Position numbers and translations under genes: made by a program
Part shown: positions 3,341-31,432 of the stretch, in pieces
Position numbering within the stretch: the first letter of the stretch is position 1
Layout of the letters: every line of letters begins with the position of its first letter
Source of the DNA: Bacillota bacterium
GTDB taxonomy: Bacteria > Bacillota > Limnochordia > DTU080 > JAAYLA01
DNA length: 34,270 nucleotides
Direction: 5' to 3'
Assembly: GCA_012522135.1 (NCBI GenBank)
Contig: JAAYLA010000035.1
Location: 1 to 34,270, forward strand
Notes under the pieces: model-generated
What the model was told of the DNA's origin: nothing
Database searches by the model: none
The model's input: the letters and a program-made list of their open reading frames with translations, nothing else

Positions 3341-4425
3341 TGGAGCGACTGTACCGCATTGCCGTGATGACCGCGGCCAACACCCACAGGGCCTTTCGCA
3401 CGCCCGCCAACATCATCTGGACCTTGGTGGTGCCGATCGTCTTCAGTCTAGTAATCGCTGCCTTGTTCAGCGGCCCGGGCGGCGGACCGCAGACGGTATA
3501 TATCGTGGACGAAGACCGAACCGAGACGTCCCGTCGTTTTGTCGACGGTCTGGCTTCACGCTCCTACCAACCGCGGGCAGTTCCACGGGAAGAGGCGGAA
3601 GGCCAGCTCGCGGCGGGCAGCTCCGGGTTCGTGCTGATCATTCCGTCCGGATTCGAGGCGGCAGCAACTCAAGGCCAGCCGCGCGTTGAGATCCTGCACG
3701 GTGCGGACTACACCGGCGGAGACTTCGAGACGTGGGCGACGGCCGTGGCGCAGGCGCTCGTTCGTGGCGAAGCCGTGCCGTCCGTTGAGGTTACCCAAGA
3801 ATCTCCGAACGGGAATCGGGCCGGCGACGCGCTGGCCCAGATGCGCACTGCCTTCGGGGTGTACATCGTCTTTGCCTTTGCCGCTCTGTTTGCGCGGGGC
3901 GGCGCGCTGCACCAGGAGAGGGAGGACGGCACCTTGCACCGCCTCGTCGCGGCCGGCGTGCCGTACGGCGAGGTCGTTGCGGCTCACGTGGCGAGCCTGT
4001 TCGGGATTGGTCTGTTGCAGGCGGCGGTTGTATTGACGGTCACGGGCGCCTTCGGCACGCTGTGGCTGGCGGCGGGCTGGGGAGTGCTTGCCCTGGCCCT
4101 TCTCGGCAGCCTGTACGTCGCGGCGGGGTTGGCCTTAGGGCTCGCCGGTATCACGCGCAGCGCGACGCTTCTGCAAGGCCTCGCAGGAGGACTGCCGCCG
4201 CTGCTCGCCATGATGGGCGGGGCCTTCTTTCCCCTGGAAGTGGCGCCGCTCGCTCTGCAGCGGGCTGCCCGCATCAATCCGATTTTCTGGGCCATGGAAC
4301 TGGTCACGGAGGGCTACATGTACCGAGGTGTCTCGTCACAGCTCATTCCGTTGTTCGTTCTCATCTTGCTCGGTACTTTGGGCAGCGTAGTAGGCATTCA
4401 GCGCTTGCGGCGAATGGAGCTGTAA
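3337..4425 (+). CDS. ABC-2 type transporter permease
   Basis: Internal start MMERLYRIAV at 3337 overlaps the upstream stop (ATGA); ABC-2 membrane architecture. The longer ORF from 3154 overlaps the previous gene and is rejected. Confidence 0.88.
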   Translation: MMERLYRIAVMTAANTHRAFRTPANIIWTLVVPIVFSLVIAALFSGPGGGPQTVYIVDEDRTETSRRFVDGLASRSYQPRAVPREEAEGQLAAGSSGFVLIIPSGFEAAATQGQPRVEILHGADYTGGDFETWATAVAQALVRGEAVPSVEVTQESPNGNRAGDALAQMRTAFGVYIVFAFAALFARGGALHQEREDGTLHRLVAAGVPYGEVVAAHVASLFGIGLLQAAVVLTVTGAFGTLWLAAGWGVLALALLGSLYVAAGLALGLAGITRSATLLQGLAGGLPPLLAMMGGAFFPLEVAPLALQRAARINPIFWAMELVTEGYMYRGVSSQLIPLFVLILLGTLGSVVGIQRLRRMEL

Positions 4426-12706: not shown

Positions 12707-13786
12707 TCATATCACTTCCAGATAATCCCGATCGGGCAGAGGCGGATGGGGCGCGTGGGGCTCCAGCTGGTACCAAAATACGGTGGACGCAATGTCGTCT
12801 TGCAGAGGCAAGTACCGGCCTCCGGAGCGCCATCCCAGGGCCTGAATCGTCACCCGCAAATCCTTCTCGAAGCGGATGGGATCTTGGATGTGCCAGCGGT
12901 ACATGCCGAACCGCTGCTGACTCCGGTAAAGCCCGTCGGGCCGGATCACCTGGGGCAGCCCGAGGTACGGCGTGCTGAAGGTGCGGTACTCACCGTTTAC
13001 ATCGAAGTTCCAGGCGCCGCCGAAGTAGTCCTCCGTGCCGGTGCCGCAGATGGTCGGAAAATCGCGGTCGCCGTCGATGTAAAACTTCACTTCCCCTTCG
13101 CCCCACCAGCCCGAATTGTTCACACCCCAGGCAATGTAGGTTCCCACGTACTGCCCTTGACCTCGGATGTGGTCGACCAAGGTGTGCACTTCTTTGTAGG
13201 GAAGCGGGTTGCTGCGGCGCCAGAAAGCGTGGAAGTAGGCCGCGTCGTCGGGTACCTCGGTCAGCACATAGTCGATCTGGTAGTAGACGGTCGCGTCTTC
13301 GTCGGAAAGGTTTTCGATCTCAAGGCGCGCTGACTTCCGGAACGGCATCTCCCAATACGAGTTCATGCCGCCGTGGGGATTGACCGCTATGGGAAGGGAG
13401 TTGATCTGCGCGAACTCGCACCAGCCGCTGCAGAAAAAGTCGCCGTAGGGCACTTCGACCGAAGGGAGCGGTTCATCGTCCCAGAAAAAGCGGAGCACGA
13501 GCTGGCGCCAATGTTTGCGGTGGGTGGTGATCCAGATATGTTGGATGGCCCCGGGACCTTCAATTTCGGCCAGTACGAATTTCGTGCGGGCTTCGAGGCG
13601 GATCGAGGGCGAGACCTTCCAGCCTTGACCAAGCTCTCGGGCGGCATGCGCTCCGGTGCCTTCCGTGGCCATTCCGCCTTTGCCTTTTTCGCCCGTAAAA
13701 TTTTCCGCACTGATTGAGCGCGTTTTCGCCGGCGAGATGCGCCACAGATTATGTAAACCGACTCCGAGTCCGTTGAAACGCTGCAT
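12707..13786 (-). CDS. DUF2961 / GH172-family protein
   Basis: SISAENFTGEKGKGGMATEG, GPGAIQHIWIT, CGTGTEDYFGGAWNF; SD AAGGAGG before ATG. Confidence 0.9.
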   Translation of the reverse strand: MQRFNGLGVGLHNLWRISPAKTRSISAENFTGEKGKGGMATEGTGAHAARELGQGWKVSPSIRLEARTKFVLAEIEGPGAIQHIWITTHRKHWRQLVLRFFWDDEPLPSVEVPYGDFFCSGWCEFAQINSLPIAVNPHGGMNSYWEMPFRKSARLEIENLSDEDATVYYQIDYVLTEVPDDAAYFHAFWRRSNPLPYKEVHTLVDHIRGQGQYVGTYIAWGVNNSGWWGEGEVKFYIDGDRDFPTICGTGTEDYFGGAWNFDVNGEYRTFSTPYLGLPQVIRPDGLYRSQQRFGMYRWHIQDPIRFEKDLRVTIQALGWRSGGRYLPLQDDIASTVFWYQLEPHAPHPPLPDRDYLEVI

Positions 13787-13892: not shown

Positions 13893-15623
13893 CTATAGGC
13901 TGCCGGCCGCCACGAGTTCGATCAAGTACCCGGCATCGTCGTAACGGTCCTCGGCGCTCAGAAAATGGACGTAGCTGATGCCGAAGGCGCTCGGGTGTAC
14001 CAGCGGCAGGGTAAGGGAGCGCTCGCCCACGGTGAGCCGGCACGCGCCTGTGTCCGCCGCGTCCCAACGGAAGACAAGCTCGTGCCAGACGCCGGGCTCG
14101 AGCTGCACCGCCCCGGACTCATCGGGCCTGAACGTGACCGTGTACATGGCGAAGTGACGGGCAAATACGTCCGTCGGGTTGAACCAGCGATCCGTAAGAT
14201 TGATGCGGCCGCCTGCGGTGCCGGGCAGCAGTTGGATGCGGGTGCAGAACGTGCCGGAGGGCGCGGCGGGGAAGTTCCAGACGGCCCCCTGCACGTCGCT
14301 CACAAGGCTCGGGTCGGGCGTACGGCGGATGTGCAGCACCTGCGCTCCGGGCCGGTCGGGATGGGCCACGAGGCGCGGGCCCACCTTGCGGTCATAGGCG
14401 CAGTGGCCTCGAATTTCATCGATGTATTGGTGGACGCTCCAATGCTCCAGACCGTTTTCGAAGTCGTCGCGGCGCCCCTTTTCGTACAGCCAGGCCGGAT
14501 CGAAAATGAGGAGCCTGCGGCAGACGGGGTGTTGCCCGACCGCGACCAGCACTTTTCCGTGAGGCAGCTCGACGGCTTGGGACTGGTGCACGCTCTTGTC
14601 CAAGGAAACCGCCGGGCCGCCGCCGCTCGTGGCGAAGTCGCCGTCGTTGCGAGCCGGGTTGAGCAGCAGTTCCCGAAAGCCGATCCACGTTTTGCCGTCG
14701 TCTTCGCTGATGGCGGCGTGGAAGGCGTCGCGGTTCGTGAACACGTCTTCAGCCCGGCCCGACCGGATGGACTCGGTAAGGGGATCGCCCTCGGGAAGCA
14801 GGCTGTGGTCCCGCTCGGGCAGGGGCGTCGTGTTGCACCAGAGGAACAAGATGCGTCCGTCGGATAGGCGATGGAGCGTCGGCATGGTCAGGGTGCCGTA
14901 GAAGGGGGACGGTTTGGGCGCTGTCCACGTATCGCCGCCGTCATACGAGAAGGATTCGTAGTGGTTGTTCGTGGACGTGCGCAGCAACATCCACAGGGTG
15001 CCGTCGGAAAGCTCGACGACCGTGGGCTCGGTGACGCGGTTTTGCCAGCGGATACCTCGGTCGGGCCAGGTGATGGGATAGGGGTCTATGGTTTCAATCT
15101 CCCGGACCCGCCACGTGTGGCCGTCGTCGTCGGAAAGGGCCACGGCCGCCCGGTTGATGCCGTCGTCGCAGTACAGGTTCGTGGGGACGATGACCCGCTC
15201 GCGGCGCCGCAGGAAAAGGGGCAGCCGCATCATGCCGGCGAGACGATGGTCGATTTGCCGGGCGTGATACGGGCCGTCGATGCCGGTCGTGGAGCGATAG
15301 ACCGACAGCGGAACGCCGGGCCCGCTCCAAAGGAAATAGTAGTCGCCGGAATAGGGGCTCGGCACGCCGGGCGAAGGGGAGACCACTTCGTCCACGGTAG
15401 GCTTGTCCGTCAGGATGAAGCCCGGGTCGAGTTCTTTCGACTGCCACGTGAGTCCGTTGTCCCTGCTTTCGATATAGAGGGGATGCGGCTCGCGCACCGT
15501 GCCTCGGTAACCGTAGCAGCGGATGGTGCCGTCGGGCAGTCGAATCAAGTTGCGAAAGGCGTTCGAGGGAGGAACGCCGGTGACGACGGGGGCGAAAATG
15601 TTGTCGAGTTCGACGCGGGGCAC
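13893..15623 (-). CDS. BNR/Asp-box exo-sialidase-like protein with C-terminal lectin-like domain
   Basis: Asp boxes SRDNGLTW, SDDDGHTW, SYDGGDTW, SEDDGKTW; SD AAGGAGGA before GTG at 15623; no signal peptide from this start. Confidence 0.85.
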   Translation of the reverse strand: MPRVELDNIFAPVVTGVPPSNAFRNLIRLPDGTIRCYGYRGTVREPHPLYIESRDNGLTWQSKELDPGFILTDKPTVDEVVSPSPGVPSPYSGDYYFLWSGPGVPLSVYRSTTGIDGPYHARQIDHRLAGMMRLPLFLRRRERVIVPTNLYCDDGINRAAVALSDDDGHTWRVREIETIDPYPITWPDRGIRWQNRVTEPTVVELSDGTLWMLLRTSTNNHYESFSYDGGDTWTAPKPSPFYGTLTMPTLHRLSDGRILFLWCNTTPLPERDHSLLPEGDPLTESIRSGRAEDVFTNRDAFHAAISEDDGKTWIGFRELLLNPARNDGDFATSGGGPAVSLDKSVHQSQAVELPHGKVLVAVGQHPVCRRLLIFDPAWLYEKGRRDDFENGLEHWSVHQYIDEIRGHCAYDRKVGPRLVAHPDRPGAQVLHIRRTPDPSLVSDVQGAVWNFPAAPSGTFCTRIQLLPGTAGGRINLTDRWFNPTDVFARHFAMYTVTFRPDESGAVQLEPGVWHELVFRWDAADTGACRLTVGERSLTLPLVHPSAFGISYVHFLSAEDRYDDAGYLIELVAAGSL

Positions 15624-15726
15624 TGCTTGCTCCTCCTTCGGGACCGGCTGCGGCACAGCCGCCCGGTTGGCGTTGTGCACGGCGCAACCGGCCATGCGGC
15701 AGGTGCATTATAGCACGGAACGCGGG

Positions 15727-15795: not shown

Positions 15796-17073
15796 TTAGT
15801 CCTCCATAGCGCGCACGATTTCTGCCCGCCATTCGTCGTTGGCCCGCTCTAGGGCGATGGAAGAGGGCTCCTGGTCGATGAGCACCGCATTGCGGGCGCG
15901 GACCAGGTGGTTCCATACGTTCGGCACGCCTTCGCCGTACGGATTGTGCTTCTCGAACCGCACCGACTCGGCATGCGAGAGCGAGGCGATGTACCAGCGC
16001 GTGAGGGGATCGTCGAAGCGCGAGCCTTGAATAAACTCACGCGACGGCCCAAAGAACCCCGTCGTGCCGAAGATGAGCGTCTGGGCCTCCGGGGACGTCG
16101 CCAGGAATTCCGCCAGTTTCCAGGCGGCGTCGATGTGCTTTGCTCCCTTGGGGATCATGTTGATGAACGTGGTGACCTGCTGCTTGCGTGTGCCGTCCCA
16201 GGTTGGATGCCAGGTGACTCCGAATTCATGCTCCGGCGCCCGGCGGCCAAGTTCGGCCGGCGCGTAGGCGCCGAGGTTTGCCATGGCAGTCTGTTGCCGC
16301 CCGATCAAATACCAGCCGGCGGGCATGGCCTCGTGAAACTCTTCGGCCGACCGGGCTTGGCCCAAAACGAAGTTGTCGTTCAGGAAGTCGAGGGCACGGG
16401 CCACTTCCGCTGAATTGAGGCGGGGTTCGCCGTCCGCGATGAGGGTTAGATCGAAATAAGTTTCCAACACGTCGGGGTTGGAGTTGCGCCCCTCCAGCGG
16501 ATGGTAGCCGATGCGGACCAGGTTGTCGTCGGCGGAGCGGACGACGAGCTTTCTGGCGAGCTCGACCAGCTCCGTCCACGTTATAGAGCGGTCTTCCGGC
16601 AGCGGTTGGATGCCGCCTTCGGCAAACATCGTCTTGTTCCAGACAAGTCCGTCGAGCGGGTAGAGGGCTACTCCGGGAACCCCGTATTCAACGCCGCGAA
16701 ACTGGGCCGTCATCTCGAGGCCGGGCAAGAGTTTTTCCCACAGTCCGGTGGCGGCAAAGTAGGCGTCCAAAGGCTCGAGGCCGTCCAGGAGAAGCATGGA
16801 TTCGTAAAAGCCCGACGTGCCCAGGACTAGGTCGGGGGGAACCCCTGCCGCGGTGGCCGTAGCCAACTGGTCCAGGTTGACGCCGACGCGCTTTGTAACC
16901 TTGAGATCCGGGTGGAGCTGTTCGAATAGGGCGATGGCTGCGTCGATGCCTCCTTGCGATTCCTGCGGCCAGCCCCAGACCCAATATGTAATCTCCTGTT
17001 GCGCCGACACGGGAACGACCAACATCGCAAGCGCCAGTACCCAGACGAGCGACAATCCGAATGCGCGTGTCAC
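15796..17073 (-). CDS. ABC transporter extracellular solute (sugar)-binding protein, family 1
   Basis: Signal peptide MTRAFGLSLVWVLALAMLVVPVSA|QQE, ITYWVWGWPQE, family-1 SBP pattern; SD GAGGAGG before GTG at 17073. Confidence 0.9.
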   Translation of the reverse strand: MTRAFGLSLVWVLALAMLVVPVSAQQEITYWVWGWPQESQGGIDAAIALFEQLHPDLKVTKRVGVNLDQLATATAAGVPPDLVLGTSGFYESMLLLDGLEPLDAYFAATGLWEKLLPGLEMTAQFRGVEYGVPGVALYPLDGLVWNKTMFAEGGIQPLPEDRSITWTELVELARKLVVRSADDNLVRIGYHPLEGRNSNPDVLETYFDLTLIADGEPRLNSAEVARALDFLNDNFVLGQARSAEEFHEAMPAGWYLIGRQQTAMANLGAYAPAELGRRAPEHEFGVTWHPTWDGTRKQQVTTFINMIPKGAKHIDAAWKLAEFLATSPEAQTLIFGTTGFFGPSREFIQGSRFDDPLTRWYIASLSHAESVRFEKHNPYGEGVPNVWNHLVRARNAVLIDQEPSSIALERANDEWRAEIVRAMED

Positions 17074-17196
17074 GGTCGTGCAGCCTCCTCGTCCTTGTCG
17101 AGTCCCTGGTGACGTCTGTTCGCTTCCAAGGCAATGACACAACGCGGTGCGAAGATCGTGGGTACAGCCCTCCCTCATCTTGTCTATATTCGGTAT

Positions 17197-17222
17197 GTGG
17201 ATACAGAAACCACAAAATGGTT
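17197..17222. promoter_or_regulatory. tripartite operator-like site B
   Basis: G-TGGAT-ACAGA-AACCA-CAAAA-TGGTT; includes perfect palindrome GAAACCA-CAAAA-TGGTTTC (17206-17224). Confidence 0.65.
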
Positions 17223-17230
17223 TCGAGCCG

Positions 17231-17260
17231 ATTGTACCACCGCAGGCTTTGTCGTGTCAA
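17231..17260 (-). promoter_or_regulatory. sigmaA-type promoter of the SBP gene
   Basis: Minus strand TTGACA (17260-17255), 18-nt spacer, TACAAT (17236-17231), reading toward the SBP start at 17073. Confidence 0.7.
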
Positions 17261-17654
17261 GAAGAGTCAATTGCGACATCTAAGCGTCCCCCGGCGCCCG
17301 GCCCAACGGTAACCATGCCGGTCACTGCGCCCGCAGGAACTGCCGGAACCCGGAACACTTCGTGATAACGGGCACAGGCGGTGCCGGCAGGATTCTGCCG
17401 CCGCCTGGGCGAATGTTGTGACACAGTATGCAGAGTCAGTCTCCTTCCGGGGCATCGGTACGGTCGCCCTCCCGCCGGTTCGCACGCGGAGCCGGTGGAG
17501 TGGATCAGGTCCGTCACCGGTGCCCCAGCCCTTTTAAGGACTTGAAAAACCCGGGGAGAGCGTCGAGCTAGCGCGCAGCACTCAATATGCGGCAATATCT
17601 CCTGCGGTTGCCACGCACGCCGTGACATGGTAGAATTGTGCCGGAAGTCGTTTC

Positions 17655-17680
17655 GTGGATCTTTTATCCATAAAGTGGAT
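17655..17680. promoter_or_regulatory. tripartite operator-like site A
   Basis: G-TGGAT-CTTTT-ATCCA-TAAAG-TGGAT; same 10-bp-phased layout as site B. Confidence 0.6.
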
Positions 17681-17757
17681 AAACCGTAGGCCCCAATCTC
17701 CCTAATCCGGGTACGCCCTGTCACCGGGTCACCAGGCGGCTCGGGAGATCGGTCGGC

Positions 17758-18567
17758 TCACGCCGTCCGGCGGCGTTGCAGCAGTTCGGTGTACCAGTGC
17801 CTGGGATCCGCGCTCAGCTGCATGCCTAAGGCGGCCGACGCGTCGCGGCAGACATCGCACACACGGGCTGCGTGATCTTGCAAATCGGCCTCTGTAAAGG
17901 GAGCCTTCTCCGAGGAGATGGAGATGGCCGCTTCGGGAAGGCCGTGTGCATTGACAATGACCGAGGCGACGCAGTGCAGCCCGAGCGTGCTCTCTTCGTC
18001 GTCGAAGGAAAAGCCGTTCGTTCTTATCTGTTCGATCGCATCGCGCAGCTTGGCCTCCGACGTGATCGTGTTGGGCGTGAAGGGCCGGAACTCGTAGTTT
18101 TCGAGGATTTCCTCGATTTCATCGTCGGGGCTAAAGGCGATAAGGGCTTTGCCCAGAGCCGTGGAGTGGAGCGGTGCCCGGGTTCCGACGGGGGTGTAGC
18201 GGGCATACGCCTCGGGGGGCAGCACCGTATCGAGGTAGACGACTTCTTGACCCGAGCGGACGGCCAGGTGCACGGCGGCGCCGCAGTCCTGGCTGAGCTT
18301 CGCCATATACGGGTAGACGAGGCGGCCCAGAGTGGCTTGATGTACGCCGGGGTTGTAGAGACGGAGCACTCGGGGACCGATCCGGTAGATTTTGTTCGAA
18401 CGTTGAAAGTGCAGGTACCCCAAGCGGGCGAGGGTAGTGAGCATGCGGTGGGCCGTCGCGTACGGCAGGCCGAACCGGTCGCTGATCTGCTGCGCGGTCA
18501 GTCCATCCCGCTCCGCGGCCACCGCCTCGAGTATGGAAAGGGCCTTCTCCACGCTGCGTACCGTCAC
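17758..18567 (-). CDS. IclR-family transcriptional regulator
   Basis: SVEKALSILEAVAAERDGLTAQQISDRFGLPYATAHRMLTTLARLGYL and IclR effector domain GTRAPLHSTALGKALIAF; SD AGGAGG. Confidence 0.96.
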   Translation of the reverse strand: MTVRSVEKALSILEAVAAERDGLTAQQISDRFGLPYATAHRMLTTLARLGYLHFQRSNKIYRIGPRVLRLYNPGVHQATLGRLVYPYMAKLSQDCGAAVHLAVRSGQEVVYLDTVLPPEAYARYTPVGTRAPLHSTALGKALIAFSPDDEIEEILENYEFRPFTPNTITSEAKLRDAIEQIRTNGFSFDDEESTLGLHCVASVIVNAHGLPEAAISISSEKAPFTEADLQDHAARVCDVCRDASAALGMQLSADPRHWYTELLQRRRTA

Positions 18568-18740
18568 GTCGTATCCTCCTCGGAACCGGTCGTTCTTTCC
18601 CCGCTCGGACGCCAGTGACCCCCGGCTCGCTGGAACGGGATTCCGAGTTCAGTCTATCACGAATCGAATGGGCGGGGAAGGAGCGGGCAGGGCGAGGTGT
18701 ATGAGCCGGCGCGGCAAGTTGCGAGTCGATTAAAGGGGGA

Positions 18741-20555
18741 ATGGTTGTGAGACGTTCACGCACCTGGGTCGCATTCCCAGTCTTCATGCTGCTTATGGCC
18801 GTGGCGGCGGGCAGCATGGCCCAGGCTGAGCAGGGCGCGCATAAGGAAGGATGGGTGTTGGTGTTTGAAGATGACTTCGACGGCGACGGCCTGGATCAGA
18901 CGAAGTGGAACCTGTTGCCGATAGGAGCTCCGGTCGCACCGCGCAAAGACGGGTACTGGGCCCACGAAGCGGTTTTCCTGGACGGCGAGGGGCACCTGGT
19001 TATCCGCACGTTCGAGGGGGACGGCGCCTACTACACGGGCGGCGTCAACACCCTGGGCAAGTTCGAGCAGGCATACGGCTACTACGAGATCCGGGCCCAG
19101 TTGCCCAAGGAGCCGGGGTTTTGGGCGGCCTTTTGGCTGATGACCGACGGCGTGCACCGTGTCGGCGACCAGGGGCGCGACGGCACCGAGATCGACATCT
19201 TCGAGTCGCCTTACGCGTCTGCCGATACGATCCACCACGCGCTGCACTGGGACGGCTACGGTGAAAGCCATCGTTCCGTAGGCCGCGACGTGCACATCCC
19301 GGGCATCTACGACGGGTTCCATGTGTTCGCGGTCGAGTGGAACGAGGAAGAGTACATTTTCTACGTCGACGGCGTCGAGACGTGGCGGACTTCCGCGGGC
19401 GGCGTCTCCAGGGTTCCGTCTTTCCTCAAAGTGACGGCGGAAGTGGGCACATGGGCCGGCGACATCCGTCAGGCCCGGCTGCCGGCGGATTTTATCGTCG
19501 ATTACGTGCGGGTTTACGCTAGGGATCACAAAATCGAGATCGATGCGCCCCCTCGCGATGCGGTCGTTGCCGCCGACGCACCTGTGCGCTTCCGCATCGC
19601 TCCGGACGTCGCCGTGAAGGAGGTCCGCGTGGTTCAAAACGGTACGGAGATTTACCGGGGAGCCGCGGTACCGGACGAGCTGACGCCGGCCTTGCCTGTG
19701 CAAGATGCGGAGGAGGAGCATCGCCTGACGGTCACCGTGCTCGATGCGGAAGGCCGCGAACACGAGCGGTCCGTGCGGTTCCGCGTGCAGCAGCTAAAGC
19801 TCGACATCCCCTTTGCCGTCGGCAGCCGAGTCCGTGAGGTGATCGACGTACGGGCAGCGGCCGGATTTGCGGCGGGAGAGCAGATAAGCGAGGCGCGGCT
19901 TGTTTTGCGTCCGGTGCAGCCGGGCGAGGAGACCGGCGGCGCAGGCACGGTGCTGTATGAGGGAGCCGGGCTGCCCGCCGTATCTTGGGACACCCGCACC
20001 TTTGCCGACGGCGCCTACGATCTCGTCTTGCTCGTGCGGACGGACAAGGGAAGGACGCTCGAGGTTCAGGAGCGCATTCTCGTGGACAACTGGGAAGTGC
20101 TGGAGGAGCCCTTTAACGCGCCGATCGCCTTTTTCGGGATGCAGGTCGACTCGCTCTTGGCCGTAGAACGTTCCCCGGGTTGGCACCACGTAACCGAGCG
20201 GCCCGCGGCCTTCTTCGGCGATGACGGTCGACTCGCAGCTCAAGGCCTCGGCGACCACGTCCTGGTTTGGAGGCTGCCGCGCCTTCGCTCTTTTGAGCTG
20301 GAAGTGTACGTGCACGATGAAGCTGACGCCGAACTCTTGCGCTTTGCAGCTGCTGCGGAAGGGGGCGAATGGCGAGAGCTGACCGGCAGGGTGTCGGTTG
20401 AGGAACGCTCACCGGAAGGCTGGCTGCGTCTGCGGATTTACGGTACGGTGCCGGATGCGTGGGAGGCCGACTTGTTCCGGCTTACGTACGCCCCGCAGGA
20501 GGAAGCGAACGCACCCTTGCAGCTGGGCCGCTTGCTGCTCCGGGGCCAGAAGTAA
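18741..20555 (+). CDS. secreted GH16 family glucanase (laminarinase-like) with C-terminal accessory modules
   Basis: Signal peptide; LVFEDDFDGDGLDQTKWN, GFWAAFWLM, catalytic DGTEIDIFES, FHVFAVEWNEEEYIFYVDG. Confidence 0.93.
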   Translation: MVVRRSRTWVAFPVFMLLMAVAAGSMAQAEQGAHKEGWVLVFEDDFDGDGLDQTKWNLLPIGAPVAPRKDGYWAHEAVFLDGEGHLVIRTFEGDGAYYTGGVNTLGKFEQAYGYYEIRAQLPKEPGFWAAFWLMTDGVHRVGDQGRDGTEIDIFESPYASADTIHHALHWDGYGESHRSVGRDVHIPGIYDGFHVFAVEWNEEEYIFYVDGVETWRTSAGGVSRVPSFLKVTAEVGTWAGDIRQARLPADFIVDYVRVYARDHKIEIDAPPRDAVVAADAPVRFRIAPDVAVKEVRVVQNGTEIYRGAAVPDELTPALPVQDAEEEHRLTVTVLDAEGREHERSVRFRVQQLKLDIPFAVGSRVREVIDVRAAAGFAAGEQISEARLVLRPVQPGEETGGAGTVLYEGAGLPAVSWDTRTFADGAYDLVLLVRTDKGRTLEVQERILVDNWEVLEEPFNAPIAFFGMQVDSLLAVERSPGWHHVTERPAAFFGDDGRLAAQGLGDHVLVWRLPRLRSFELEVYVHDEADAELLRFAAAAEGGEWRELTGRVSVEERSPEGWLRLRIYGTVPDAWEADLFRLTYAPQEEANAPLQLGRLLLRGQK

Positions 20556-27742: not shown

Positions 27743-30085
27743 GTGGTCACGTTCGCCAAAGGGCAGCGCCGTCGGAAGGTCCTGGACCTGATAGCGGGTA
27801 GTATCGCGATCGTTGCAGTCCTGCTCACGTTGGGCGGAGGGATGGCCATGCGCACAGCACGGGGGGCCGCGCCGGAGGGCGGGGAGGCGAAGGCGCCGGC
27901 CGTAGTGCAGATGGGCCGGGGCAGTTACACTACGCAGCTTCCTCCGGGACGCGCCGAGCCGCCCGATCGCGTTTACCTGTTGGACGAACCGGTAGGACCC
28001 GTGCCGACGAACAAATGGTGGAGCTCGGCCCTGTGGCTGCCCCTCTCGGAGCCGCTTTATGCCCATCCTCTGGTGTTCCGGGCGACTGCTCAGGGGCTAG
28101 GCGTCGGTTATCCGCCGTTGCGCGTGCGCGGCGGTACCAACCCGGCCTTCTTTGCCACGTACCGGCAAGACCTCGTCCTCAGTTTGCACGGTCTGCACGT
28201 CGATACGGCATGGGTGGCCGGTTGGGGCGATTGGACCGTCGAGTTGCAATTTGAAAGTGGCGACCTGCGGCTTTCCACGCGCATCGGACACGGGCTGCCG
28301 TACGTGTACGCAACTTTCGCCGGAGCGCCGCCGGTCGTCATTTTCTCGGGGCCCTACTCCGTGTGGCAGGAGAGCGGCGACGGACGGGCCCTCGGCGTCA
28401 CGGTCAACGGAAACCACTACGGCCTTTTCTGTCCTGCAGGCGGCGCTTGGCGGAGAGAGGGACCGTACCGGCTAGTGTGCGACGGCGCGGAGCAGGCCGG
28501 ATACGTCTCCCTAGGCCTTTTGCCACACGCGGATCCCGAACTCTTGGCGCTACTGCAACGTCACGCCTTCGTCTTTCCCCGCGACACACGCGTTACGTGG
28601 GCGTACGTGCGCGACCGGGCCGAGGTATTGACGGAGTTCGTCGTCGACGTGGAGGTTTTCGAAGGCGACGAAGGCCGTGCCCTGCTTGCTCTGTATCCCC
28701 ACCAGTGGAAACACACCTCGCATCCGACGGTAGACGGCCTTTCCTACCAAAGCCCCCGTGGCCCAATGCGCGCCATACAGGGCAACGGCTTCGTCACGAC
28801 GCATACGTACCCGGGGATCTTGCCCTTTCTGCCTCCTTTGCCCGCATCCGAAGACGAAATCGTGCGCGAACTCCTTCGGCAGTCCGTCCGCGGCGACCTT
28901 TGGCCGCGGGGGCTCGGTACGGGAGTGCGCGACACGTACTGGACCGGCAAGTCGGTCAATCGAGTGGCCCAAATGCTGCCCATCGCCGAGCAGGTGGGAG
29001 AGGAAAACGTTCAACGGCGCCTGCTCGAAGAGCTGAGGAGCCGGCTCGAAGCGTGGTTTACGGCGTCGGGCCCTGACGATCCTGACTTGTTCTATTACCA
29101 TGCGCGCCTCGGGACGTTGATCGGATATCCGGCCAGCCACGGCACGGACTCCGAAATGAACGACCATCATTTCCACTACGGATACTTTATCGGCGCCGCG
29201 GCGATCGTTGGGCTGTATGACGGGGAATGGGTCCGGCCGGAAGCGTGGGGCGGCATGGTGCAGCTGCTGATCCGCGACTGGGCTGCGTGGCGCCGGGACG
29301 ATTCGATGTTTCCTTTCTTGCGCACGTTTGACCCGTACGCCGGCCACTCGTGGGCGTCCGGACGCGGCGACATGTTCGAAGGCAACAACCAGGAATCGTC
29401 GTCGGAAGCCTTGCACGCGTGGGCGTCCCTCGTTTTGTTCGGCGAAGTAACGCAAGACGAGACGATCCGCGACCTAGGGGTTTGGGGTTACACCTTGGAG
29501 AGCCACGCGTCCCGTTACTATTGGTTCGACGTCACGGGCGAGCTGTTTCCCGCCGGGTACGAGCCGCCCGTCATCGGACGTCTTTTCGGCAGCGGAGGCG
29601 ACTACGACACGTGGTGGACCCGGGACGCACGGGCCGTGCACGCGATCAACGTGTTGCCGGTGACGGGCGCAGCGCTGCACCTTGGGCGCGATCCGGCGCG
29701 GGTCGCGCGCAGTTGCGCTTGGCTGGACGGCGTCGGGAGGGGGCAGGCCGAAGGCTGGACCGACATTTTGGCTGCATACTGCGCCTTGGCCGATCCCGCC
29801 CGTGCCTTGGAAGAGTGGCGCCGGGACCCGATTGCCGAATTCGGCGACTCCCCCGCCCACACATATCATTGGATCGAGAATTTGCGGCGTCTCGGCCACG
29901 TCGACGCGCAGGTGACCGCGGACCACACACTCTACGCGGTGTTCAATAAGGACGAACTCCGCACCTACGTGGCCTACAACGCGGGGAGCGAGACGCTGCG
30001 TGTGCGGTTTTCGGACGGCGTGGAAATCGACGTAGCCCCGCGCAGTTTCGGGATCACGCGCGCCGCCGGTTCCTTCGCGGGATGA
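27743..30085 (+). CDS. GH81 endo-1,3-beta-glucanase
   Basis: VPTNKWWSSALW, DSEMNDHHFHYGYFIGAAAI, MFEGNNQESSSEALHAW; N-terminal hydrophobic segment; start uncertain. Confidence 0.94.
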   Translation: MVTFAKGQRRRKVLDLIAGSIAIVAVLLTLGGGMAMRTARGAAPEGGEAKAPAVVQMGRGSYTTQLPPGRAEPPDRVYLLDEPVGPVPTNKWWSSALWLPLSEPLYAHPLVFRATAQGLGVGYPPLRVRGGTNPAFFATYRQDLVLSLHGLHVDTAWVAGWGDWTVELQFESGDLRLSTRIGHGLPYVYATFAGAPPVVIFSGPYSVWQESGDGRALGVTVNGNHYGLFCPAGGAWRREGPYRLVCDGAEQAGYVSLGLLPHADPELLALLQRHAFVFPRDTRVTWAYVRDRAEVLTEFVVDVEVFEGDEGRALLALYPHQWKHTSHPTVDGLSYQSPRGPMRAIQGNGFVTTHTYPGILPFLPPLPASEDEIVRELLRQSVRGDLWPRGLGTGVRDTYWTGKSVNRVAQMLPIAEQVGEENVQRRLLEELRSRLEAWFTASGPDDPDLFYYHARLGTLIGYPASHGTDSEMNDHHFHYGYFIGAAAIVGLYDGEWVRPEAWGGMVQLLIRDWAAWRRDDSMFPFLRTFDPYAGHSWASGRGDMFEGNNQESSSEALHAWASLVLFGEVTQDETIRDLGVWGYTLESHASRYYWFDVTGELFPAGYEPPVIGRLFGSGGDYDTWWTRDARAVHAINVLPVTGAALHLGRDPARVARSCAWLDGVGRGQAEGWTDILAAYCALADPARALEEWRRDPIAEFGDSPAHTYHWIENLRRLGHVDAQVTADHTLYAVFNKDELRTYVAYNAGSETLRVRFSDGVEIDVAPRSFGITRAAGSFAG

Positions 30086-30151
30086 GGTGGACCGAAGACC
30101 GGCGTGCCGTTGTGAAGCCGTGACTATGAACAAGCAAGGAGGGATTTCAAC

Positions 30152-31432
30152 ATGCGGCGGATCGTTTGGGTTGTCTTGGCTCTAGCGGCGGTGGCGTTCG
30201 TGCCGGTGCCGGGCGGCGCCCAGGAACAAGTGGTCATCACGATGTATACCGGAAGTCCTATCGGTTCGGTGCCCAATGCGGCGCTGCAGGAGTATTTGGA
30301 TCTTTACATGGAGCTCAACCCGCACGTGCGCATCGAGAATCTCGGCCAGGAACACAATCCCGACAAACTGGTCACGCTCTTTCTCACCGGCGAAGCACCT
30401 GACATCATCGAGCACGATGCCGCGTTCATCATCGAGTACTACCAGCGCGGCTTTTTGGCCCCCGTTCCGGAAGATCTGCGGAAGAAGGCGGAGGAATTTT
30501 TCTATCCGGTGTCGACTTATTCGGTTACGCTAGGCGACGTCATGGTCGGCATCCCAGTAGAAAGCAATGCGGTCGGCCTGTGGTTCAGCCGCCAAGCCAT
30601 GGAGGAGGGGGGCGTCACGGAAGTGCCCCGCACCGTCATCGAGCTCGAACAGGTGGCGCGGCGCCTCGCCAGGGTCGACTCTGAGGGCAACCTCGTGCGC
30701 GCCGGCCTGGCCCATTCGGGGGATGCACCGTGGGCGTTCACCCATACGGTACTGGCCTTCATGATCGCGGAAGGCGGCAGTGTCCTCGACGAGGAGGGCC
30801 GCATCGCCCTCGACAGCCGTCCGGTGCTCGATACGATCGTGCGCCTCGCGGGTTGGCTGCAGGTGGGCGACTTTTTCGGTTTCGAGCCCGACTGGCGTTC
30901 GTACAGCGCGTTCCACAGGGGCGAGGTCCCCTTCGGCGTCGGATATCCGTGGTGGATGCAGGACCAGCGGCAAGTTTACCCCGGCGACTACACACAAAAC
31001 TTCGGCGTGGCCCTATTGCCGGGTACGGAAAGCTACGGTACGGTCCACTACGGCCACGCCTACGGCGTGAACCGGCGCAGCCCGCACTTGGACGAAGTCT
31101 GGAGGCTGCTCGAATGGCTCAGTCTGGAGAGCGTCGACGGCATCACTCCGCTCGGCGCATACCATGCGGCCATCGGCACATTGCCCGTGCACCGTGACGA
31201 CGTGGCGGCCGACCACTTCGCAGCCGAGCGCGCCATATACCAAGGTTTCATCGACAATTTGGCCTACGCGCGCACGGTCACGGAATGGCGCCGCTTCGGT
31301 GCGGATCCCGATATGTCGCAGGCCGTGCTCAGCGTAGCCAACGGCGAGGCGAGCCCCGCACAGGCGGTCGAGACCTTGGTGCGGACCACGCAAGCGGCCA
31401 TGGAGCGCTACGGTGAGCTCGTGCGGGAGTAG
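30152..31432 (+). CDS. ABC transporter extracellular sugar-binding protein
   Basis: Signal peptide MRRIVWVVLALAAVAFVPVPGGA|QEQ, VITMYTGSP..., family-1 SBP pattern; SD AAGGAGGG. Confidence 0.9.
   Translation: MRRIVWVVLALAAVAFVPVPGGAQEQVVITMYTGSPIGSVPNAALQEYLDLYMELNPHVRIENLGQEHNPDKLVTLFLTGEAPDIIEHDAAFIIEYYQRGFLAPVPEDLRKKAEEFFYPVSTYSVTLGDVMVGIPVESNAVGLWFSRQAMEEGGVTEVPRTVIELEQVARRLARVDSEGNLVRAGLAHSGDAPWAFTHTVLAFMIAEGGSVLDEEGRIALDSRPVLDTIVRLAGWLQVGDFFGFEPDWRSYSAFHRGEVPFGVGYPWWMQDQRQVYPGDYTQNFGVALLPGTESYGTVHYGHAYGVNRRSPHLDEVWRLLEWLSLESVDGITPLGAYHAAIGTLPVHRDDVAADHFAAERAIYQGFIDNLAYARTVTEWRRFGADPDMSQAVLSVANGEASPAQAVETLVRTTQAAMERYGELVRE

Follow-up and report, generated by a model that had tools for sequence, protein, structure and literature searches.

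IclR-type regulators are known to bind sites built from short, alternating half-sites. In a survey of the family, three-box sites were described for 32 orthologue groups, and also for PcaU, PobR and HmgR (Suvorova & Gelfand 2021, PMC8222616). The published consensuses are GKTYCRYW3-4RYGRAMC for group 1 and TGRAACAN1-2TGTTYCA for group 2, and three-box sites combine both; tandem palindromic sites, with centres 18–22 nt apart, were assigned to 94 orthologue groups (PMC8222616). The DNA analysed here, referred to as the window, is a stretch of 34,270 nucleotides from a Bacillota bacterium (contig JAAYLA010000035.1, assembly GCA_012522135.1). An initial annotation had noted two 26-bp sites next to an iclR gene, and both 26-mers were found letter for letter, site B at 17197–17222 and site A at 17655–17680. 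They are 458 bp apart, measured start to start, within a gap of ~580 bp between two minus-strand genes, one for a substrate-binding protein (SBP) and the other iclR. In each site, TGGAT-N5-AWCCA represents a group 2 pair and AWCCA-N5-TGGWT a group 1 pair. Site A consists of a group 2 element (TGGATCTTTTATCCA) followed by a group 1 element (ATCCATAAAGTGGAT) with ATCCA common to both, and therefore agrees with the IclR family in architecture as well as in half-site sequence. The operator layout is one already described for the family, of which sites A and B are a new, well-supported example.

When the whole genome (3.22 Mb) was scanned with the pattern of the initial annotation, sites A and B were the sole exact matches; the next-best match has two mismatches. 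Allowing up to three mismatches, the window contains three matches (two of them exact), as compared to 0.39 expected. Since the pattern had been derived from sites A and B themselves, the exact-match count alone is an unfair test, and symmetry was therefore scored separately, with no letters preset, by asking whether a half-site is followed after 5 bp by its reverse complement and after a further 5 bp by the half-site again. The score was 10/10 for site A and 9/10 for site B, and in 1000 dinucleotide shuffles of the 579-bp intergenic stretch a score of 10 never arose, nor did 10 plus 9. Site B includes the perfect palindrome GAAACCA-N5-TGGTTTC, site A the perfect palindrome TTTATCCA-N5-TGGATAAA, and in both an extra TGGAT half-site is located 10 bp to the left (5' side) of the palindrome. 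Across 73 class genomes, the core TGGWT-N5-AWCCA-N5-TGGWT has five exact occurrences, sites A and B being two of them. Simple symmetric words rich in A/T can arise randomly; however, the shuffling result, the rarity of the core and the positional conservation described below make it extremely improbable that the sites are products of chance or passive repeats. Judged by their sequence features, they are a real, functional-looking and conserved pair of predicted operators.

A total of 21 pattern matches were examined in all genomes. Five, at the loci of the window and of the relative G007, are outside evident genes, and the other 16 are inside ORFs, including those for a ribosomal protein and for membrane proteins. 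The ORFs which overlap the window sites (465 and 570 nt) were judged to be spurious frames. An ORF of 155 aa on the minus strand (17257–17724), which covers site A, was dropped, as it crosses the operator-promoter region and is without other support. Elsewhere in the same genome, C254:1378 and C254:1583 were considered as a second pair of sites and rejected, both being inside ORFs; a match with two mismatches at C378:6339 was rejected as G+C-rich and without a perfect palindrome. Orthologues of nanA, nanE (split over two contig ends), a NagK-like kinase gene and the BNR gene are present on separate short contigs (C17, C122, C308 and C395). A search for the operator near these four genes found none in the available sequence; because the contigs break next to both nanA and nanE, the assembly may lack an operator that flanks these two genes. 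The genome also contains a second IclR-type gene (G000:C10:2179-2958), whose product shares 34% identity with that of the window; the match includes one TAG, possibly the gene end.

The iclR-type gene of the window (17758–18567, minus strand), the presumed owner of the operators, has its end at 17758, in agreement with the initial annotation, and encodes a protein of 269 aa from a GTG start behind the Shine-Dalgarno sequence GAGGAGG. Matches to HTH_IclR (PF09339, 7.6e-17) and IclR_C (PF01614, 1.8e-43) place the protein in the IclR family, and the closest solved structure is 1mkm, an IclR transcriptional regulator (phmmer, 7.3e-34). The SBP gene (15796–17073, minus strand), the predicted target of site B, codes for a sugar ABC transporter substrate-binding protein according to its SBP_bac_1 profile match. 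Its start, chosen by inspection, is likely the GTG at 17073, which stands behind GAGGAGG at 17084–17090; the open frame reaches 17178. A gene for a sialidase-like BNR-repeat protein (13893–15695, minus strand; BNR_2, 2.8e-17) is on the same strand with a gap of 100 bp and is probably co-transcribed with the SBP gene, as probably is the gene of a DUF2961 protein (12707–13786, minus strand; match 1e-98). A secreted GH16 glycan hydrolase is encoded on the plus strand (18741–20555), and its orthologue in G007 has a promoter and an operator directly upstream. The C-terminal module of the GH16 protein is also present in an M60 peptidase of G007 (L056:22-2262; 30% identity over 242 aa), whose gene adjoins iclR in divergent orientation; the arrangement looks like a swap of catalytic domains beside the same regulator. 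At 27743–31432, the window has in addition a gene for a GH81 enzyme of the beta-1,3-glucanase type with a further SBP gene behind it, and no operator was detected in the vicinity. Searching the long intergenic region against Rfam revealed no RNA element, and two sub-threshold matches to microRNA and lncRNA families, located outside the intergenic region, were taken as chance.

Conservation was compared in the three relatives with the closest IclR proteins, namely G007 (58% identity), G004 (51%) and G010 (39%). Widening the orthologue search to 400 genomes of the phylum and to GTDB contigs yielded none closer than these three. In G007, the only zero-mismatch match of the 2.6-Mb genome (C5:11295-11319, TGCAT-acttc-AACCA-catta-TGGAT) is intergenic and upstream of an SBP gene within the iclR cluster. 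Two sites with one mismatch are on another contig than iclR: C7:993-1017 precedes the orthologue of the window GH16 gene (49% identity) by 110 bp, and C7:3057-3081 is ~400 bp upstream of a second SBP gene. At the latter site (L139:3045-3081), an extra GTGGATGTGGATCCAC is found in the flank, and the boxes go on at 4-bp, not 5-bp, spacing. The SBP gene downstream of it (L139:3476-4774) has an in-frame TAG at 3599–3601, after the signal peptide, which points to decay of the gene or to a mistake in the assembly. G010 has four phased boxes, AACCA-N5-TGGTG-N5-CACCG-N5-TGGTT, directly upstream of iclR and behind TTGACG-18-TATGAT. In G004, no clear site was found near iclR; a weak palindrome is visible by eye at about L059 4668-4690. 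Conservation of the motif upstream of orthologous SBP/IclR loci, proposed as a check in the initial annotation, thus holds for two of the three relatives, but not for G004. Since iclR and GH16 orthologues are shared with one genome only, the conservation rests on few lineages. The iclR cluster of G007 comprises genes for a BNR protein, a NanA-like aldolase, NanE, a NagK-like kinase and the M60 peptidase, and its GH16 contig also carries those of a GH95 enzyme and a second M60 peptidase; in G004, the BNR, NanA-like and SBP genes are divergent from iclR.

In neither the window nor G007 does the motif stand directly upstream of iclR, which could mean that another regulator, sharing these loci by chance, owns the sites. 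This appears highly improbable, given that the half-site fits the published IclR consensus, that sites outside genes are confined to genomes which have this IclR subgroup and are found beside its linked genes, and that the site of G010 does precede iclR directly. It is very likely that the IclR protein encoded next to sites A and B uses them as operators; we infer its binding from these sequence relationships.

The initial annotation had described three phased half-sites per operator. The alternating 10-bp layout was confirmed, but comparison of six sites favours a count of four. A weaker box 10 bp upstream, termed box 0, appears across the six aligned sites as ATTCG, AGTCG, ATTCA, GGTCA, CCCAC and AACCA; the first two are the degenerate fourth half-sites of B (17188–17192) and A (17646–17650), respectively. 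As compared to random flanking words, box 0 is in excess with p = 5e-5 for the pattern AWYCR, which was partly shaped by the sites, and with p = 0.007 for KTYCR, an independent family consensus, whereas the same test at the mirror position downstream gave no excess (p = 0.99 and 0.72, respectively). Box 0 is weak in one of the six sites, and one G007 SBP site is without a fourth box. The comparison favours a 35-bp array in which four half-sites alternate in direction, forming two tandem palindromes 20 bp apart, with the consensus AWYCR-N5-TGGAT-N5-AWCCA-N5-TGGWT. Read in this way, the predicted operator B covers 17188–17222 (plus strand, ATTCG-N5-TGGAT-N5-AACCA-N5-TGGTT) and the predicted operator A 17646–17680 (plus strand, AGTCG-N5-TGGAT-N5-ATCCA-N5-TGGAT). 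The second palindrome, at about 20 bp, falls within the 18–22 nt of IclR tandem palindromes.

Promoters, the element that implies repression, had not been mentioned in the initial annotation. A simple sigma70 scan of 17000–18800 returned two promoters, as compared to 0.4 expected, each running into one of the sites. P_B (17231–17260, minus strand; TTGACA-18-TACAAT with TG before the -10) matches the consensus at 11/12 positions and is directed toward the SBP gene; 8 bp separate the end of its -10 from site B, and the chance of such a promoter within 30 bp is 0.0155. P_A (17608–17636, plus strand; TTGCCA-17-TAGAAT, likewise with TG before the -10) matches at 10/12 positions and points away from the SBP gene, with 9 bp between the end of its -10 and the outer box of site A (chance 0.0095). 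The distance from the -10 to the array is 8, 9, 10 or 11 bp at four of the six sites, with a chance of 0.01–0.08 for a promoter near each; the distances of 10 and 11 bp belong to the G007 GH16 site and the G010 iclR site, and no promoter match was found near either G007 SBP site. The array would span about +2 to +37 relative to the predicted start, and the geometry therefore implies repression. Activation from sites A and B, as reported for PobR and PcaU, has in its favour that these two regulators have three-box sites and that PDB entry 5hpf names PobR a transcriptional activator. It is nevertheless very unlikely here, since an array which begins 8–11 bp downstream of the -10 normally blocks the polymerase, and since P_B, with its 11/12 consensus match and extended -10, should need no activator. 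We infer repression rather than activation.

The two sites might also act jointly, as suggested in the initial annotation: one IclR tetramer could hold A and B together by DNA looping, so that A would serve as an auxiliary operator in the repression of the SBP promoter. The near-identity of the pair, 458 bp apart in one intergenic region, and the ability of IclR proteins to form tetramers (PMC8222616) are compatible with looping. However, an own promoter at matching spacing explains each site separately, the sites of G007 are separated by 2 kb or lie on different contigs, each upstream of its own gene, and 458 bp corresponds to about 43.6 turns at 10.5 bp per turn, a non-integral number. Looping is thus unlikely.

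P_A is oriented antisense to iclR and toward GH16. The first gene on its strand is GH16 at 18741, with iclR between on the opposite strand, and no other promoter match of at least 8/12 was found on the plus strand in 17600–18760. The predicted geometry fits that of an excludon, in which one transcript is an mRNA as well as antisense to a neighbour. Tentatively, and with rather low probability, P_A and site A may form a feedback switch in which release of IclR would yield an mRNA of GH16 which at the same time is antisense to the iclR mRNA. If true, this would be an excludon in which the antisense RNA of the repressor gene is under the control of the repressor itself, and, provided that P_A is real, the locus would be a natural test of a repressor governing antisense transcription across its own gene. 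Alternatively, site A is possibly a remnant from iclR coming to lie between operator and GH16, or possibly an auxiliary operator.

Taken together, it is highly probable from sequence comparison that the neighbouring IclR protein is a ligand-released repressor which controls genes of carbohydrate uptake and glycan degradation via sites A and B. The four alternating half-sites would present two palindromes at a distance of 20 bp and on one face of the helix, an array that would suit two IclR dimers or one tetramer. As site B is directly downstream of the near-consensus predicted promoter of the presumed SBP-BNR-DUF2961 operon, IclR bound there would block transcription start or escape, and a ligand, presumably derived from a sugar, would release IclR and switch the operon on. 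Site A would have the same role at the second promoter, on the opposite strand. The linked genes suggest glycans with amino sugars, possibly mucin-like, as the substrates; GH16 and GH81 in the window could equally mean beta-glucan. A literature search for IclR regulators of sialic acid genes found no relevant study. An unstudied IclR subgroup of uncultured Bacillota relatives is hereby given an operator concrete enough to test, together with a predicted regulon of small size, and appears to be tied to glycan degradation (GH16, BNR, M60, GH95 and NanA/NanE-type proteins) and not to aromatics. The continuous four-box array moreover would be a clean case for studying IclR dimerisation on alternating boxes, a question left open by the 2021 survey.

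Among the described systems, the three-box operators, with their group 1 pair KTYCRY-W3-RYGRAM and group 2 pair TGRAACA-N1-2-TGTTYCA (PMC8222616), resemble sites A and B in the alternating half-sites, the spacing and the middle box common to both pairs. Tandem palindromic sites (PMC8222616) are similar in that boxes 0 and 1 and boxes 2 and 3 form two palindromes 20 bp apart; they differ in that the inner boxes here form a third palindrome, the array is continuous, and its first box is weak. At the protein level, the likeness to 1mkm, of the same family, extends over nearly the full length. The PobR/PcaU-type assignment of the initial annotation was borne out for the alternating 10-bp layout, but not for the sequence, which is that of a general IclR half-site: the boxes are TGGAT/AWCCA with a TGGAT core instead of GTTCGAT-type boxes, there is an apparent fourth box, and the predicted targets are carbohydrate-related genes (SBP, BNR, DUF2961 and GH16), in contrast to the aromatics protocatechuate and 4-hydroxybenzoate. 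Finally, as far as the excludon-type arrangements are outlined in PMC4179725, the locus would be alike if P_A reads through, producing an mRNA for one gene that is antisense to a divergent neighbour; it would differ in that the predicted antisense target here is the repressor of the same promoter.
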